Source: Cyanobacteria bacterium PR.3.49
GTDB lineage: Bacteria; Cyanobacteriota; Vampirovibrionia; Obscuribacterales; Obscuribacteraceae
Reading direction: 5' to 3'
Assembly: GCA_013997645.1 (NCBI GenBank)
Contig: PNKB01000006.1
Coordinates: forward strand, 1 to 64,000
Length of the DNA: 64,000 nt
Both the position numbers and the translations under genes were made by a program. Positions 4,101 through 25,453 of this stretch are shown piece after piece; positions within the stretch are counted from its first letter, which is position 1, and each line of letters starts with the position of its first letter. A model generated the notes under the pieces. It was not told the origin of the DNA and did not search any database. It worked only from the letters and a program-made list of their open reading frames with translations.

Positions 4101-4295
4101 AAGGTTTTTAACTTTCACCCCGGCAGTTTTGTCGCCCTTGCCGCCTTTGCCCAATTTGTCGGCGCCGGTGCCGTTTTCGCCTTTAGTATCCTTCTTGTTA
4201 GCCGGTATCGTCTTGCTTACGGTCTTGCCGGCTTTTGTTCTTGGCTTTTCCTTGAGCGCTGTGGCTCCTTTCGACTTCTTACCGTTTGTTGCCAT
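1170..4295 (-). CDS. uvrA: UvrA excinuclease ABC subunit A
   Basis: DNA damage sensor of nucleotide excision repair; a dimeric ABC ATPase that loads UvrB. Both ATPase halves are complete: Walker [10 protein letters not shown] near residue 125 and GVSGSGKST in the second half, two LSGGEAQR signatures, and DEPSVGLH and DEPTTGLS Walker B/D-loops. Zinc-finger CxxC pairs are present (CPEC, CANC/CPDC, CEAC/CDVC). At 1041 residues it is longer than usual because of a Lys/Gly/Thr-rich N-terminal extension of 93 residues ahead of [12 protein letters not shown], where canonical UvrA begins. The second D-loop reads TTGLSFAD where most UvrAs have TTGLHF. The ATG at 4295 keeps the extension; a start at 4016 would give a standard protein. 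Confidence 0.96.
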
Positions 4296-4429
4296 GATTC
4301 CTCGGAAATTTATTAGCGCGCGTCCAGGTCCGGCGCACGTCTACGATTTAGATAAGAATGATAGCCGGAATTTTCAGCGCTCGCCACGGAAAGACAGGGT
4401 GCGCGTTACAAGGCATTTCGGCACAGCTG

Positions 4430-18386: not shown

Positions 18387-18794
18387 TTAGAGCTGACCAA
18401 CAACGGGCTCGGTCATGTCGGTGACGAAATTCATTCTGTCCGGTCCGCCAAAGGGAATCGGAACAGGGAATCGGCAGACGATCTCGGTAACCACGGTCAC
18501 TGATGTGCCGGCATTGTATTGAACAGGGCGGAACAGTCTTTTGGAGGTGATGTATCCTGCTGCCGGAAATCTGTCGACAGCGGTCTGGGCAGCTGCTTGC
18601 GCTTTGCCGGCCGTATCCGTTTCGGCAGCGGCTCTGGCGGCGCTCTTGCACATCGAGTCGTTAGCGGTCTGGGCTAATACTGCGGCTGCAACGTCAAAAA
18701 GAAAAAGCACAATCGGGATGATAATGAAAAGACCAGCTGCGGTCTCGACAATACTCGTCCCTCGTTTTCTTCTCGAAATCCTAGATTTCATCAT
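18387..18794 (-). CDS. TadE-like pseudopilin
   Basis: Small membrane protein of 135 residues with the arrangement of TadE-type minor pilins: a basic N-terminus (MMKSRISRRKRG), then TSIVETAAGLFIIIPIVLFLFDVA with a glutamate five residues into the hydrophobic helix, as in type IV-like pilins. The rest is extracytoplasmic and Ala-rich. It follows the second TadE-like gene by 33 bp in the same direction. No prepilin peptidase, TadA, TadB or TadC is nearby. Confidence 0.72.
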   Translation of the reverse strand: MMKSRISRRKRGTSIVETAAGLFIIIPIVLFLFDVAAAVLAQTANDSMCKSAARAAAETDTAGKAQAAAQTAVDRFPAAGYITSKRLFRPVQYNAGTSVTVVTEIVCRFPVPIPFGGPDRMNFVTDMTEPVVGQL

Positions 18795-18827
18795 GGACTG
18801 CCACCCCTCCTTGGGTGAGGAATTGTG

Positions 18828-19289
18828 TTAGTTGATACCGTACTCTTCTTGCGGTCGCTCGGATCTATAGGCAAACTCGATAGGAGCGCCGATTCCGGGC
18901 ACGCTGCCCAAAAATGGGATTTGCAAGAAGGGCTGGATTTGAATACGGGTCGAGACAATAGCCGTGTCGATCGGATAATTGTCTGTCGGATTGCGATCCT
19001 CGAACTGCGCATCAGAGAAAGTCTCTCTGCCTTTAACGAATTTGGCCAGTGTGCTGGCTTCCCAGGCGACACGAGCACGAGCTAGAGAATCAGCCTTTCT
19101 TGCCGGTGGGACACAAGCAACTTCGCGGCACTGCAAGTGATTCAGATACCAGCCGGCAGCATAAGCGATTCCCAGGTACAAGAGGTCAAGCATGGGCGGG
19201 ACGATGCAGACAAGCAGAATGAACAGCGCCGGAGCAAATTCTACAAACTCATGTCCGCTGGACTTCCGTCCTCTTGCACGGTATTTCAT
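18828..19289 (-). CDS. TadE-like pseudopilin
   Basis: Protein of 153 residues from the ATG at 19289, which has GGAG seven bases upstream; the ORF-track start 33 codons earlier has no such support. The N-terminus MKYRARGRKSSGHEFVEFAPALFILLVCIVPPMLDLLYL shows the basic leader, a glutamate and the single membrane helix of TadE-like proteins. The remaining domain is outside the membrane. Two cysteines (CREVAC) could form a disulphide. It is cotranscribed with the smaller TadE-like gene and divergent from the TadG-like gene. Confidence 0.7.
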   Translation of the reverse strand: MKYRARGRKSSGHEFVEFAPALFILLVCIVPPMLDLLYLGIAYAAGWYLNHLQCREVACVPPARKADSLARARVAWEASTLAKFVKGRETFSDAQFEDRNPTDNYPIDTAIVSTRIQIQPFLQIPFLGSVPGIGAPIEFAYRSERPQEEYGIN

Positions 19290-19593
19290 CGCGCTACTCC
19301 GTTCGGCAGAAAGGGGCGTCTGGGGAGATCTCGTTATTAAAATAACGCCTCTTTCTCGTATGTACCCACACAGCCGGTTTTGAGGCAAAGGATTAGTAAA
19401 ATATAATTGACATGATGAACGATCGCTAATCCTTGCTCGTTCATTTAGCTCATATTAGTAAGCGCCCTGTCATCTGGTCGGATGGTGCAGCAATTGCACG
19501 ACGATATGCGTCGCATATAGGTCACATTCGATACCGCTGGAGCCCGACTCTCCGCCATTACCGTGTTTTCCCCACCGGGGCCCGCGTCCTGGC
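19290..19593. promoter_or_regulatory. divergent regulatory region of the TadE-like/TadG-like genes
   Basis: Non-coding region unusually rich in inverted repeats. CGTTATT-AA-AATAACG (19332-19347) is a perfect palindrome in the TadE-side leader. GGATTAG/CTAATCC (19390-96/19426-32) and ATGAACGA/TCGTTCAT (19415-22/19437-44) are interleaved, so they could form a pseudoknot. CGACG/CGTCG and ATATGC/GCATAT around 19499-19518 exclude each other. No minus-strand promoter could be fixed. Confidence 0.5.
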
Positions 19594-19832: not shown

Positions 19833-21953
19833 ATGACCATGAAACGTCGCAAGGGAGCCACTCTCGCTTTAGTAGCAGCGTTGACGCTGTTCATAATCGT
19901 GATCGGAGTCGGTTTCTTTTTCCTAGTCAAAATGCTCGGTGGCGGCCGAGAACTGCAACATGCAGTCGACGCCGGCAACCTGAACGTCGCCAAGCAAAGT
20001 ATGCGGCGTCCTTTTCTGAGAATTTTCGGCAACGGCACTCCCGATCTCAATGAGCCGTTCCATACAATCGCAAAAAACAATTTCATGCAGGCGAAAGATC
20101 CTGCAGTCGGTGAACTTGACCTGCTCACATACAACCGTGCAGTCGGGCAGGCTCTTTTGGTCTCGGTCAACGCCATTTCTGACGGCTATGGGTTCGAGCC
20201 TGCCAATCCAATCGGTATAGCCAATGCAAAGACACTGATCAACTGCCTTTCCGACCCAGACAATGGTCTTGGTGTCACTCTGGCTGAAAAGCTCAAAAAC
20301 GATATTCAGCAGGACCTCAACTTCAGCCAGGTAGCATCAGTTACCCCGATGAAGATGCTTAATCCTGGCGGCAACAATGCGGCCGCTGAGAGCGGTCAAA
20401 AAGACATCGCTTATATGGCGCGCAACTTCGGCACCAATTTGACCATCGGTCAGATGGTCTTGCCGACCGAGTACACGAATTTCATCGATCCAGGCTTCCT
20501 GGGCGGCAACACTGTCAACAAAAAAGGCAGCGTATACGTTAAGGGTTATTCGCTGATTAACATACCCGGTATCACCAATAGTGGCTCGCATCCGCTTATG
20601 GGCGTCCCCTTGCGCCCGCAAGAAAAGCCGCACCTGGTCGCCAATCCTGATTTTAAGGACAATATGACTTCGCCCTTGCCTGGCGGTTCTCAAGTCGATA
20701 CTCGCGTTCCACCTAATGCTTTCCACTCGGCCGGCAGTTCGCAAGAATTGAAAACGACGCAGAGAACATTGGCCAGATCATGTGCCATCGTCGGTAGTGT
20801 CGATATCAAAGGAGAATTCTCCGCTTCCATTCCCTGTGGCTACATCGTTGTCGCCAACGGTTACGGACCGATTCCATCCGGACCTGTGGCTTTTGACGGA
20901 CCGGCAGCTGGAATGACCGACCAAGCGTACGGTGGTGGGCCGACTGATATTTTCAGCGATTTGCTGATGTCGCCGGTGTATGTGACTCCAGGCGGCAATG
21001 CCATGGACACCAATCTCCAGGACATCCTGGCTATCCAGCAACACAAGCAGCAGCATCCGGGCGAACCTGTCCCGCAAAATCTGGTCAACAATCTGGACGG
21101 GCCTTCACCAAAACAGGCCGCAGCAGACAGCATCAGTGCCGATGGGGGTGTTTCGACTTGCACCAATCTCAACAGCACGCCAACGGCACCTCGTCCGGAT
21201 CGCAATTGCTACGAAAATTTGCAGAAGATGGCGACCACATATGGCTTCAACTTGCCTGACGGCTCCAGCGGTTCAACCTTGACCGGCTTGATGGCGGTTG
21301 AGAAGTACAAAGCTCAAGTTATCAATCCCAGACCGGGTGGCGGACCGGCCATAGTCACCGGACTGTACAACAACACTCCTTATGGTGTCTGCACCGGCAT
21401 GAAGCAGTTCACCTTGGGCGGAATCAGCCACACCGAGCCGATTACGTTTGGAAAGACTCCGACAATTGCCAATTTGATTGGCAGCTTCACGCAATACTCA
21501 CCGACGCAACCGCTCGGCAACATAGTCAAAAGTCAGATCTACCTCAAGATCCGTCAGATTCGTCCGGAGACGAGTAACAACGAAATTGATGAACTCCTGG
21601 CAAGTTCACCGATGCCTATGGGACAAGTCAGATATATCTGGATGGACGATAGCCGCACCTTGAGAGTATCAGCCAAGAATTCGCTTCCCAGCTGGATCAA
21701 GGGTGATGCAGTATTTCCTGATGGTACCGGGCATGAAGTTGTAGCCGGTCCGATCACTGGCAATCGCAATTTCGTAAACATCGAACAAGAGCAAGGCTAC
21801 CCGAGCCCATGGGATTGTTTTGGCTCCGATCCGGACGAAGTCAGGTCGATTATGAACTGGCGTCGATCTTCCGGATTCAACTGCTTGCAAGGCGTATTGC
21901 GCTTCAGCAATTGCGTCAAAGCCAACACCAACCCTTGGGATTGCCCATGCTAA
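19833..21953 (+). CDS. large TadG-like pilus-associated protein
   Basis: Protein of 706 residues. The start MTMKRRKGATLALVAALTLFIIVIGVGFFFLVKM is a basic leader plus one membrane helix. It is followed by GGGRELQHAVDAGNLNVAK, which matches the Tad_N/TadG pattern (RELQHAVDAAALA in typical TadG). The remaining ~640 residues are extracytoplasmic, rich in Gly, Pro, Asn and Thr, with scattered cysteines and a CPC end. No VWA domain motif is clear. It is divergent from the two TadE-like genes across a structured promoter region, which supports a joint surface-fibre function. Much longer than a pilin; it could be a tip or surface protein. Confidence 0.65.
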   Translation: MTMKRRKGATLALVAALTLFIIVIGVGFFFLVKMLGGGRELQHAVDAGNLNVAKQSMRRPFLRIFGNGTPDLNEPFHTIAKNNFMQAKDPAVGELDLLTYNRAVGQALLVSVNAISDGYGFEPANPIGIANAKTLINCLSDPDNGLGVTLAEKLKNDIQQDLNFSQVASVTPMKMLNPGGNNAAAESGQKDIAYMARNFGTNLTIGQMVLPTEYTNFIDPGFLGGNTVNKKGSVYVKGYSLINIPGITNSGSHPLMGVPLRPQEKPHLVANPDFKDNMTSPLPGGSQVDTRVPPNAFHSAGSSQELKTTQRTLARSCAIVGSVDIKGEFSASIPCGYIVVANGYGPIPSGPVAFDGPAAGMTDQAYGGGPTDIFSDLLMSPVYVTPGGNAMDTNLQDILAIQQHKQQHPGEPVPQNLVNNLDGPSPKQAAADSISADGGVSTCTNLNSTPTAPRPDRNCYENLQKMATTYGFNLPDGSSGSTLTGLMAVEKYKAQVINPRPGGGPAIVTGLYNNTPYGVCTGMKQFTLGGISHTEPITFGKTPTIANLIGSFTQYSPTQPLGNIVKSQIYLKIRQIRPETSNNEIDELLASSPMPMGQVRYIWMDDSRTLRVSAKNSLPSWIKGDAVFPDGTGHEVVAGPITGNRNFVNIEQEQGYPSPWDCFGSDPDEVRSIMNWRRSSGFNCLQGVLRFSNCVKANTNPWDCPC

Positions 21954-21955
21954 GC

Positions 21956-21973
21956 GGCGTGGATGCCCACGTG
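21956..21973 (+). other. hairpin after the TadG-like stop codon
   Basis: CGTGG/CCACG with a 4-base loop lies 4 bp after the stop codon and has no T-tract. It may mark an mRNA 3' end or protect it. Read-through into the next leader is likely. Confidence 0.3.
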
Positions 21974-21989
21974 CGCCCCTAAGCAAAAA

Positions 21990-22066
21990 GAGGTAACCTA
22001 TAGCTTGTAGTTAGGTCCGCATTACCTCCTGGATAGTGGCGGACCGATTACCAGCCGGCGAGGTCC
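21990..22066 (+). promoter_or_regulatory. putative pseudoknot leader with Shine-Dalgarno switch
   Basis: Two perfect 7-bp helices interleave: GAGGTAA (21990-21996) with TTACCTC (22022-22028), and GGTCCGC (22014-22020) with GCGGACC (22039-22045). The junction is one base and the loops are 17 and 10 bases, which fits an H-type pseudoknot. GGACC (22041-22045) can instead pair with GGTCC (22062-22066). That pairing covers part of the Shine-Dalgarno GAGG (22060-22063) of the gene at 22074. The layout is that of a translational switch. No known riboswitch family was recognised. Confidence 0.5.
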
Positions 22067-22073
22067 TTTTAAA

Positions 22074-22580
22074 ATGACAGAAAACAATCTGCCGGTCCGC
22101 GCCAGTTTTTTGGTTGTTGCCGCTTCATTGTGCGGAGCTTGGCATGCCCACAGCGCTTTGGCTCAGGGGCAGACACAGGCTCAGCAGCAGAGTCCTTTCA
22201 AGAACAGACCCGTCCTGGGCCGATCTTCCTCACACCTGCCTGATGAATTCAAGACCGAAAAACTGAGTGGTATCGTCGACTTGCCTGAGGTGCCTCAATA
22301 CACCGGCAAGACTGTTTTTATATCCGGTCTCAAATATCCCAGAGATCGCTCTGGCGCCCGCATCGTTTTGACGCTCGGAGTTCAAGAACTCGAATCCGAC
22401 ATTCTCCAGTGGTATAAATCAGCATTGAAGTCCTATCGCTGGGTGTTAGCCCCCAGCGGCCCCAACGACACCTATGTCTCGGCAGCAAAAAACAACAACA
22501 CATTCACGGTTCAAATTTCTCCGTCCAGAACACCCGGCTTCAGGACAATGATGGTTCTCTCCTACAAATTCGGGATTTGA
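22074..22580 (+). CDS. secreted protein of unknown function
   Basis: Exported protein of 168 residues; family not recognised. The N-terminus (LPVRASFLVVAASLCGAWHAHSALAQ) is a signal peptide with cleavage near residue 31. A Gln-rich spacer follows, then a compact domain of about 110 residues with the pattern VFISGLKYPRDRSGARIVLTLGV, a helix with DILQWYKSALKSYRW, and two final strands (NTFTVQIS, RTMMVLSYKFG). GAGG lies 10 bases before the ATG and is part of the switch-like leader. First gene of a packed operon; the next start is 4 bp after its stop. Confidence 0.6.
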   Translation: MTENNLPVRASFLVVAASLCGAWHAHSALAQGQTQAQQQSPFKNRPVLGRSSSHLPDEFKTEKLSGIVDLPEVPQYTGKTVFISGLKYPRDRSGARIVLTLGVQELESDILQWYKSALKSYRWVLAPSGPNDTYVSAAKNNNTFTVQISPSRTPGFRTMMVLSYKFGI

Positions 22581-22584
22581 TTGA

Positions 22585-23880
22585 GTGATAAAACGATCGA
22601 TATTTTGTGCCTTGGCACTGCCCCTTGTATCCTCTCTGATTGCCTTTTCGTCCGCCGTCACCTTCGCGGCTCCACCGCCTTCGACAAGCTCTCGGCTGGA
22701 TGCGATAGAAAAGCGAATTGAAGCCGATGAGCTATCGGATGATGTATACGCTCAATTGGAAGCCATAATTGCCAAAGAGCCGACCAATCCAAAAGCTCAC
22801 CTTTATTTGGGCAATTGTTATGCGAAATTGGGATTGCCGGATCAAGCCATCGAAGAATTCAAACTTGCCACCAAATATGGACCCAACGAACCGAAAGCAT
22901 TTGTAGAACTGGTCAAACAACAAATCAAGTTCGGTCAAATTCCTGCGGCCATGACACTTTTGAATGAGGCCGGACGAAAGTTTCCTAAAGATCCTGAAGT
23001 ACAGTTTTTGATCGCCTCGTCACTAATAGCCAAGGGTAAATGGGATGAGGGCGAGTACGGATTGAAGATGGCCATCGCCAAGAAGAAAAAAATTCTCGGC
23101 TTGACCTCCGCACTAGCTGAAATCAGGCTTATGCAGGGAAATTTCGACGAAGCCATGAAGCTGGCCAAGGCAGATCTGGAAATCAATCCTAAATTTCCGA
23201 TGGCCAACAGAATTTACGGTCTGGCTCTGGCAAGCACAGGCAAGTTCGAAGAGTCAATCGGACCGCTGGACATAGCCTATCAGGCTACGCCTTTCAAACA
23301 AGGACTGGCGGAAAACCTGTCAGCATGCGCCGTCTGGGCCGGCAAATGGAAGATTGCTCTGGAGCCTTCCATCATCGCTTTGGGTGCAACAGCCAGTCTT
23401 GATTCTAACAACCCCAAGCAAAAGGCCAGACTTTATGAAGTCATGCGCCACTGCACTGTCAATGAGATAGAGCTGGCTATCAAAGCTGCCACAATCAAGA
23501 GCGGGCAGCATCCTCCGGCTGCTTTCTTCTTTGCTCTGGGAGACGTACTCGACAGCATCAACATGCGCAAATTTGCCATGGAGCAATACACGCGCGGTCT
23601 TCAAGAAGCGCCCACTTACGGACGCGCCTGGTATCGGCTGGGCAAGGACCTGGAAATTTATTCCAAAGATTATGAGGCGGCCCTGCAGTGTTATCAAAAA
23701 GCGCATGCATTCAAATTGCAAGATGCGGAAATTGCCATGGCCATGTACAGCCTGTCGGATAAACTGGCTAAGCGAAATAAAGACTGGGCCTGGAGATTGA
23801 AGGATGTGCTGAAGCCGCCGAAACCAGCGCCGGCAATACCGGACCCGGGAGCAACAGCTGCAGCCGGCGCAACGAGGTGA
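22585..23880 (+). CDS. exported TPR-repeat protein
   Basis: TPR protein of 431 residues with a signal peptide (FCALALPLVSSLIAFSSAVTFA-A). Eight or more TPR-like units follow, e.g. AHLYLGNCYAKLGLPDQAIEEF and MANRIYGLALASTGKFEESIGPL. A Pro/Ala-rich tail closes it. The GTG start lies 4 bp after the preceding stop and lacks a strong Shine-Dalgarno, so translation is probably coupled. Its own stop overlaps the next start (GTGA). In this operon it may organise the secreted and Cys-rich partners at the membrane; that is inference from position only. Confidence 0.78.
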   Translation: MIKRSIFCALALPLVSSLIAFSSAVTFAAPPPSTSSRLDAIEKRIEADELSDDVYAQLEAIIAKEPTNPKAHLYLGNCYAKLGLPDQAIEEFKLATKYGPNEPKAFVELVKQQIKFGQIPAAMTLLNEAGRKFPKDPEVQFLIASSLIAKGKWDEGEYGLKMAIAKKKKILGLTSALAEIRLMQGNFDEAMKLAKADLEINPKFPMANRIYGLALASTGKFEESIGPLDIAYQATPFKQGLAENLSACAVWAGKWKIALEPSIIALGATASLDSNNPKQKARLYEVMRHCTVNEIELAIKAATIKSGQHPPAAFFFALGDVLDSINMRKFAMEQYTRGLQEAPTYGRAWYRLGKDLEIYSKDYEAALQCYQKAHAFKLQDAEIAMAMYSLSDKLAKRNKDWAWRLKDVLKPPKPAPAIPDPGATAAAGATR

Positions 23881-24362
23881 CACCGTATATGGTGAGAGGC
23901 TTCAAGCAGAGATATCTCAGTGTCATACTGCTGGGCATATTCATCTTCTCAGCCACGGCTCCCAAACCGGCGTACAGTGAGCGCCCGCGACCGCAATCTG
24001 AAATACCGGTTGAAAAACAGCGCTTGCTTCCGGCAACAAAGAAAGTAGAAATGACCGGCGAGGTTGTGGATGCATGGTGTTTTGCATCGCAAGTTATGGG
24101 ACCAGGACGCGGAGAAAAACACAAAGCCTGCGCTCTTGCTTGCATTCATGGCGGCGTATCGGCAGGCATTCTCGACGAAAAAACAGGAGAGTTATTCATC
24201 GCGGCCAAACACAAAGGTTATACGGGCTGCAAGGATCTGCTCCTGCCGTTTGTCGCCAAACGCGTCACTGTCAAAGGTTGGATCGCCAGAAAAGGCGGCT
24301 GCAATCTGATTAAAATTCAGGAAGTGAAACTGGCCAAGCCTGGAGAAAAAACAACAAAATGA
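23877..24362 (+). CDS. Cys-rich exported protein of unknown function
   Basis: Protein of 161 residues with an N-terminal export signal (YLSVILLGIFIFSATAPKPAYS). The mature domain has five cysteines: C68 in GEVVDAWCFA, C85 and C89 in KACALACIHGG, C118 in YTGCKD and C142 in GGCNLI. The order, a strand with VVDAWC, a CAxxC helix with a GILDEKTGELF hairpin and a RVTVKGWIARKGG strand, suggests a small OB-like beta fold with a metal, disulphide or cofactor site. Its GTG overlaps the TPR stop, and its TGA overlaps the oxygenase ATG, so the genes are translationally coupled. Function is not known to me. Confidence 0.6.
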   Translation: MTPYMVRGFKQRYLSVILLGIFIFSATAPKPAYSERPRPQSEIPVEKQRLLPATKKVEMTGEVVDAWCFASQVMGPGRGEKHKACALACIHGGVSAGILDEKTGELFIAAKHKGYTGCKDLLLPFVAKRVTVKGWIARKGGCNLIKIQEVKLAKPGEKTTK

Positions 24363-25453
24363 AAGCCGGCAATGGCAACATAGGCAACATTCGCACGTTG
24401 CCGTCAATGTTTTACAAGGATCCCAGCCTTCTTGAAGAGATGAAGGAAATGATTTTTGCCCGCAGCTGGCAGCTGGTCACGGATGTTGATCGCCTGAAAG
24501 CGCCTGGGCAAGTAGTACCGCATTCGGTGATGGAAGGTTTTTTGAACGAACCAATCATCATGACTCGCGACACAGACGATCAGCTGCATTGTCTTTCCAA
24601 TGTTTGCACGCACAGAGGCAACCTGCTTGTCGAAGGTGAGTGCCACGCGCAATCGCTGCGCTGCCGGTATCACGGTCGCCGATTTGCATTGGACGGTCAG
24701 ATGGTAACCGCTCCCGGCTTTGAAGATGTGCCGGATTTTCCCAATGACACAGATCATTTGCAATCAGTTCCTTTTGCCGCCTGGCGCAAATTTCTCTTTG
24801 CTGCACCGACGACCGATTCACCGCTTTTTGCGCTCAGCGATCTCACTCAGCCGATGAGCGAACGGCTGGATTTCCTGCCCATCGAAGAATATGTTTTCAA
24901 CCCGGCCCGCTCTCGAGATTACATTGTTCGTGCCAACTGGGCATTGTATGTGGACAATTATCTGGAAGGTTTTCACATCCCATATGTTCACCCGGATCTG
25001 GCTCAGGCGCTGGACACAAAGGAATATTCCAATGAGATATTCGATTACGCCAGCCTTCAAATCGGCGTATCTTCGACAGCTGGAGAAGGTTTTGACGACA
25101 TACCGAAAGATTCTCCCGACGCCGGGCGCGATATAGCTGCCTATTACTACTTTCTTTTCCCCAACATGATGTTCAATTTTTATCCCTGGGGACTATCAAT
25201 CAACGTGGTGACGCCGCTTGCAGTCGACAGATCCAAAGTTTCATTCCTGAGCTATGTCTATGATGAATCGAAAATCGGCACCGGAGCAGGCGCCGCTCTT
25301 GATAAAGTGGAAAGGGAGGACGAGGACATAGTGGAAAGAGTGCAGCGTGGAATGAATTCCCGCTTTTACGACAGCGGGCGCTATTCTCCCAAACACGAAG
25401 CAGGCGTGCATCACTTTCACGGACTAATAAGAGAATTTCTGGGCATTGATTAA
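24359..25453 (+). CDS. Rieske non-haem iron oxygenase, alpha-subunit type
   Basis: Ring-hydroxylating-type oxygenase of 364 residues, nearest in style to the choline monooxygenase/phenylpropionate dioxygenase large subunits. The Rieske [2Fe-2S] ligands are C83 and H85 (CTHRG) and C102 and H105 (CRYHGRRF). The mononuclear iron site is NYLEGFHIPYVH with H206 and H211; a third carboxylate lies in the C-terminal EDEDIVERVQRG region. It has no signal peptide. No reductase, ferredoxin or beta-subunit gene is adjacent, so the electron donor must be elsewhere. It ends the coupled set 22074-25453; the substrate is unknown. Confidence 0.85.
   Translation: MKAGNGNIGNIRTLPSMFYKDPSLLEEMKEMIFARSWQLVTDVDRLKAPGQVVPHSVMEGFLNEPIIMTRDTDDQLHCLSNVCTHRGNLLVEGECHAQSLRCRYHGRRFALDGQMVTAPGFEDVPDFPNDTDHLQSVPFAAWRKFLFAAPTTDSPLFALSDLTQPMSERLDFLPIEEYVFNPARSRDYIVRANWALYVDNYLEGFHIPYVHPDLAQALDTKEYSNEIFDYASLQIGVSSTAGEGFDDIPKDSPDAGRDIAAYYYFLFPNMMFNFYPWGLSINVVTPLAVDRSKVSFLSYVYDESKIGTGAGAALDKVEREDEDIVERVQRGMNSRFYDSGRYSPKHEAGVHHFHGLIREFLGID

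Follow-up and report, generated by a model that had tools for sequence, protein, structure and literature searches.

The leader of a four-gene operon in a Candidatus Obscuribacterales/Melainabacteria MAG (assembly of 5.7 Mb in 322 contigs) has homologues in four congeners of its host, where it is a real, selected and functional non-coding element; this is the firmest result of the analysis. In the window, by which is meant the whole 64-kb stretch of DNA that was analysed, the leader contains a hairpin whose loop is complementary to the Shine-Dalgarno (SD) sequence of the operon's first gene, and the congener hairpin, although of different sequence, offers the SD a complementary loop as well. 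The reading that we favour, and to which we give an even chance, is that 21990-22073 is a selected cis-acting RNA that limits translation, its hairpin loop forming an H-type pseudoknot with the SD and so sequestering it. The leader probably controls translation of the operon. It is probably a new and narrowly distributed leader RNA, and its status as a riboswitch is unsupported.

Genomic position and features of the leader

The leader is located between a gene of 706 codons, which ends at 21953, and the tightly packed operon (Table 1). The order of the upstream gene, the first gene, the TPR gene and the third gene is kept in five congeners.

Table 1. Features of the leader and its flanking genes, in window positions
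Feature	Position	Strand	Remarks
Upstream gene, 706 aa	19833..21953	+	36 nt from its end to the motif; syntenic in relatives
Conserved 5′ motif GAGGTAACCTAT	21990..22001	+	SD-like, partly palindromic; includes helix 1 5′ strand 21990-21996
Hairpin stem 5′ strand GGTCCGC (helix 2)	22014..22020	+	In the MFE fold; extended outward by GTAGTT 22007-22012
TTACCTC, helix 1 3′ strand	22022..22028	+	Sits in the hairpin loop; 7 bp with 21990-21996; not in congeners
Loop anti-SD ACCTCCTGG	22024..22032	+	9 bp and one bulge with 22055-22064, -13.3 kcal/mol
Hairpin stem 3′ strand GCGGACC	22039..22045	+	GATTAC 22046-22051 pairs with 22007-22012
SD region CCGGCGAGGT, partner of the loop	22055..22064	+	GGCGAGG common to all five leaders
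Shine-Dalgarno GAGG	22060..22063	+	ATG at 22074 after a 10-nt gap; GGCGAGG and ATG similarly spaced in congeners
GGTCC, alternative partner of 22041-22045	22062..22066	+	5 bp, not conserved
CCTTTT	22065..22070	+	In the nested fold pairs with AAGAGG 21988-21993, beside ACCT 21996-21999 with AGGT 22061-22064
Operon gene 1, 168 aa	22074..22580	+	Signal-peptide-like start; no Pfam/NCBIfam family
Operon gene 2, TPR protein	22585..23880	+	
Operon gene 3, 161 aa	23877..24362	+	Without known family
Operon gene 4, Rieske ring-hydroxylating oxygenase alpha-subunit-like	24359..25453	+	

Conservation and selection in congeners

Homologous leaders are found at the same syntenic place in four congeners (G006/L038, G003/L039, G004/L040 and G002/L041). 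Their layout consists of GAGGTAACCTAT, followed by TTTGTGCGCCG-NN-GCTGG-GTTCTTGCCG-CCAGC-CGGCGCAYAAA, an A-rich stretch, GGCGAGG and the ATG. The motif GAGGTAACCTAT is identical in the window and the four congeners, and occurs exactly once in each of the five genomes; when it was searched with up to three mismatches, no excess over a reversed control was seen. What the window has in common with the congeners is the 5′ motif (AGGTAACCTATA..TTGT) together with CCAGCCGGCGAGG, whereas the hairpins of window and congeners have unrelated sequences, and the congener covariance model missed that of the window. Homology of the window copy is suggested by its 5′ motif and its SD side. In G003 (L039, ~4270-4310) an extra repeat-like insertion, GTCGCATTGCATGCGACCACATTGCATGCGC, follows the stop codon of the upstream gene and precedes the conserved motif.

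All four congeners agree at 60 of the 69 leader columns (7-75), but at only 28 of 160 fourfold-degenerate positions in the upstream gene (Fisher p = 8e-24), the pairwise identity at fourfold sites being 0.41-0.47. Invariance of this extent marks the leader as a real, selected non-coding element. The changes that did occur in the congeners fall in a two-base bulge, in the flanks, or turn a stem G-C into G-U; from their positions, and from differences in the length between hairpin and SD, it follows that no reading frame runs through the leader. An upstream ORF or leader peptide was considered and rejected, as the TTG frame meets a stop immediately in the window (TTG TAG) and at various points in the congeners, and third positions in the hairpin are as invariant as the others. 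The comparison with homologues that the original prediction had proposed as a check returned strong conservation in four congeners and no base-pair covariation: compensatory changes are absent among the four leaders, and the loop-SD helix never varies there. The window loop differs from the congener loop yet is still complementary to the SD, and the two do not allow a column-by-column alignment.

A single locus in a single genus yielded the leader. It is not present in more distant genera (L043, L044 and L045), and in a search of 194 genomes of the class with the congener covariance model only the four congeners score convincingly, four other matches (E 0.06-0.23) looking like chance. A repeat element search of the host genome matched the leader only to itself, and the operon's second gene had no close match in two incomplete congeners. 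In the nearest relative (L037), whose upstream protein is 88% identical, the contig stops 19 nt beyond the final sense codon for that protein, so that the most informative leader is missing from the comparison.

Interleaved helices in the window and the riboswitch reading

The original prediction had described two perfect 7-bp helices that interleave with a 1-base junction, and direct reading places them exactly there: GAGGTAA (21990-21996) pairs with TTACCTC (22022-22028) as helix 1, GGTCCGC (22014-22020) pairs with GCGGACC (22039-22045) as helix 2, and the single base 22021 separates them. When 21985-22075 was dinucleotide-shuffled, 5 of 2000 sequences held any interleaved pair of Watson-Crick helices of at least 7 bp, and none of the 2000 held one whose helices are separated by one base or less. 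On both strands of the window such a pair occurs in 22 of 4262 scanned 91-nt segments, which overlap one another, and its junction is as short as this in only 2. The interleaved helices of the window sequence therefore exceed chance. Also present as described is the complementarity of the 3′ strand of helix 2 to the SD: its GGACC (22041-22045) could form a helix with GGTCC (22062-22066), a stretch that shares bases with the GAGG.

From these elements a metabolite riboswitch can be drawn, wherein a ligand would stabilise the pseudoknot of helices 1 and 2 and free the SD, and the ligand-free RNA would mask it by pairing GGACC with GGTCC. The perfection of both helices, together with the ability of the loop to choose either the upstream SD-like motif or the real SD, is consistent with such a device, but neither helix 1 nor the alternative helix is found in the homologues. 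Helix 1 is not conserved because TTACCTC is absent from the congeners, where motif and loop pair at best as GGUAA/UUGCC (-5.2 kcal/mol), which does not exceed chance (p 0.18-0.45); in the window, comparison with pairing of the motif to shuffled loops gives helix 1 a p of ~0.08. The GGACC/GGTCC mask is specific to the window's species and has no equivalent in the congeners that would leave their 16-bp hairpin intact. In the window it would also have to melt a stable hairpin, as the best fold with this helix forced reaches -20.8 kcal/mol against -35.1 kcal/mol for the optimum, a cost of ~14 kcal/mol. There is no metabolic theme, and occurrence at one locus in one genus, ahead of genes for secreted proteins, gives no hint of a metabolite. 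The metabolite riboswitch is accordingly regarded as very unlikely, and the claim of ligand sensing is left unsupported. What stands of the translational switch in the original prediction is a structured and selected leader, probably with an SD-masking state; its helix 1 and the associated motif-loop pairing do not extend to the four homologues.

Two proposed ways of masking the Shine-Dalgarno sequence

The nearest-neighbour fold of 21980-22085 is unusually stable (-35.1 kcal/mol, z = -4.0). This MFE structure is nested, contains helix 2, which is extended outward by GUAGUU/GAUUAC and also inward, and lacks helix 1. It is closed by a clamp, AAGAGG..ACCU with AGGUCCUUUU, that takes in part of the SD, the bases AGG being paired with a probability of ~0.99. 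An ordinary nested fold may thus mask the SD with no pseudoknot at all, the 5′ motif reaching over the hairpin to pair with the SD and with the pyrimidines after it. This fold accounts for the conservation of the motif, and two congener MFE folds likewise pair the motif with bases past the SD. Against it, the complementarity between motif and SD flank reaches only p ~0.05 in the window and 0.15-0.5 in the congeners, and the invariant loop GUUCUUGCCG is left without explanation. We consider the nested mask rather unlikely as the general account, yet in the window, where it is predicted clearly better than the pseudoknot and also pairs the SD, it is the main rival.

The loop is where the favoured reading draws part of its evidence, as both versions of the hairpin present a loop complementary to the SD. 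The congener loop pairs as UCUUGCC/GGCGAGG over 7 bp with two G-U (shuffled-loop p 0.014-0.053), and the window loop as ACCUCCUGG/CCGGCGAGGU over 9 bp with one bulge and one G-U at -13.3 kcal/mol (p 0.009-0.024), these probabilities applying to a hypothesis formed after inspection of the data. Because the four congeners share one hairpin, the complementarity counts as two independent instances. When 126 SD-bearing ORF starts drawn from the window and the retrieved loci were scored identically, the window leader took rank 1 and the four congeners ranks 3-6; one unrelated start scored -11.5, and otherwise no start reached -10. Loop-SD pairing is better supported than either helix 1 or the GGACC/GGTCC helix.

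In the proposed mechanism the hairpin (22014-22045 in the window, 16 bp in the congeners) would present its SD-complementary loop, which would fold forward onto the SD region to give an H-type pseudoknot and block the ribosome; opening of the pseudoknot, for which a protein, an sRNA, temperature or a ligand may be the trigger, would then permit initiation on the first gene. The predicted geometry in the congeners is that of a standard H-type pseudoknot, with a stem 1 of 16 bp, a 2-nt loop, a stem 2 of 7 bp, 1 nt, and an A-rich third loop of ~20 nt. Crude energy sums, for which a pseudoknot cost of 3-6 kcal/mol was assumed, place the congener pseudoknot at -30 to -35, near the nested optimum of -35 to -38, and the window pseudoknot at -20 to -23 against -35.1 for the nested fold. 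In the window the outer helix 22007-22012/22046-22051 must open before the loop can reach the SD. In the pseudoknot and in the nested fold alike, the SD would be paired.

The invariant SD-like upstream sequence GAGGUAACCUAU could serve the loop as an alternative partner (helix 1, corresponding to an open state) or be a factor-binding site, and the 5′ motif may further act as a clamp strand. An extended version of the first of these possibilities is a new Obscuribacterales leader class, in which an anti-SD loop would choose between the upstream GAGGUAA look-alike (ON) and the real SD (OFF) by exclusive pseudoknots set by a signal, the hairpin sequence turning over and the two targets being kept. 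We hold this version to be decidedly doubtful.

A possible transcriptional or processing element

The next-nearest congener (G001/L042) bears no such leader; at ~4288-4375 it is replaced by a strong, terminator-like hairpin followed by T7. This hairpin is preceded by AAGGTAATCTGTA, which is related to the conserved motif, and a GGTAATC in L042 is complementary to GATTACC in the loop and 3′ arm of the hairpin (p ~0.04 by shuffling). The L042 element thus shares with the other leaders its intergenic position, a related upstream motif and a GC-rich hairpin, and differs from them in the T7 that follows its stem, where they have A-rich sequence and the SD.

The leader could accordingly act in transcription or RNA processing: GAGGTAACCTATA would be a promoter or an operator, or else the hairpin would serve as a partial terminator or as a stem for processing that separates the upstream gene from the operon, and the SD complementarity would be incidental. 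The seven T of L042, which make it a plausible intrinsic terminator, and the adjacency of the AGGTAACCT palindrome to TATA-like bases both point this way. The hairpin lacks a T run in the other five leaders, however, and a scan of 21600-22300 for a GC-rich hairpin with an immediate T run found no intrinsic terminator on the plus strand. No -35/-10 pair turned up near the motif in the scans, the motif occurs once per genome, and a terminator would leave the invariant loop without explanation. Such a role is considered improbable.

Relation to known RNA families

In line with the original prediction, the leader falls outside the Rfam classes. A search with 4227 Rfam families, including preQ1, SAM-II and SAM/SAH, gave no match at the gathering threshold in the window, a relaxed search of 21950-22100 gave none up to E = 5, and the sole match on the congener loci was a sub-threshold SgrS that is put down to chance. 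The sequence is new to Rfam as a structured leader, and a literature search found no paper combining 'Obscuribacter' and 'riboswitch'.

In translational preQ1-I riboswitches, bases of the hairpin loop form an anti-SD whose pairing partner, the SD, lies downstream beyond an A-rich loop (PMC11625349), as in the Tte and E. coli type III representatives of class I (PMC11625349, PMC10622847). The pseudoknot predicted here would resemble them as a small H-type pseudoknot with a loop anti-SD, a downstream SD and an A-rich loop. It differs in its 16-bp stem in the congeners and its unrelated sequence, without an Rfam preQ1 match even at relaxed thresholds; the genes downstream are not queuosine genes, and a role for a ligand is unsupported. 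The E. coli rpsO (S15) leader also controls initiation by a pseudoknot at the ribosome-binding site (PMC3858243), the position predicted for the present one. However, the pairing partner in rpsO is coding sequence and the regulator is its own product S15, whereas the present operon is without a ribosomal protein and the partner is the SD itself.

If the favoured reading is true, the leader is a small SD-sequestering RNA in which loop complementarity was retained while the hairpin was replaced, and hence a test case for the turnover of translational leaders. An operon of unknown function would likewise be marked as regulated.

The operon and its neighbourhood

Four weaker paralogues of the 168-aa first-gene protein are encoded at other loci of the genome, and relatives of it occur across the family; being without a Pfam or NCBIfam match, it represents a lineage-specific expanded family. 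Upstream, on the minus strand at 18387-19388, a TadE-like minor pilin (weak NCBIfam match) and a second small, N-terminally hydrophobic protein are divergent from the 706-aa gene at 19833-21953. The neighbourhood is possibly a Tad-like pilus or surface locus.
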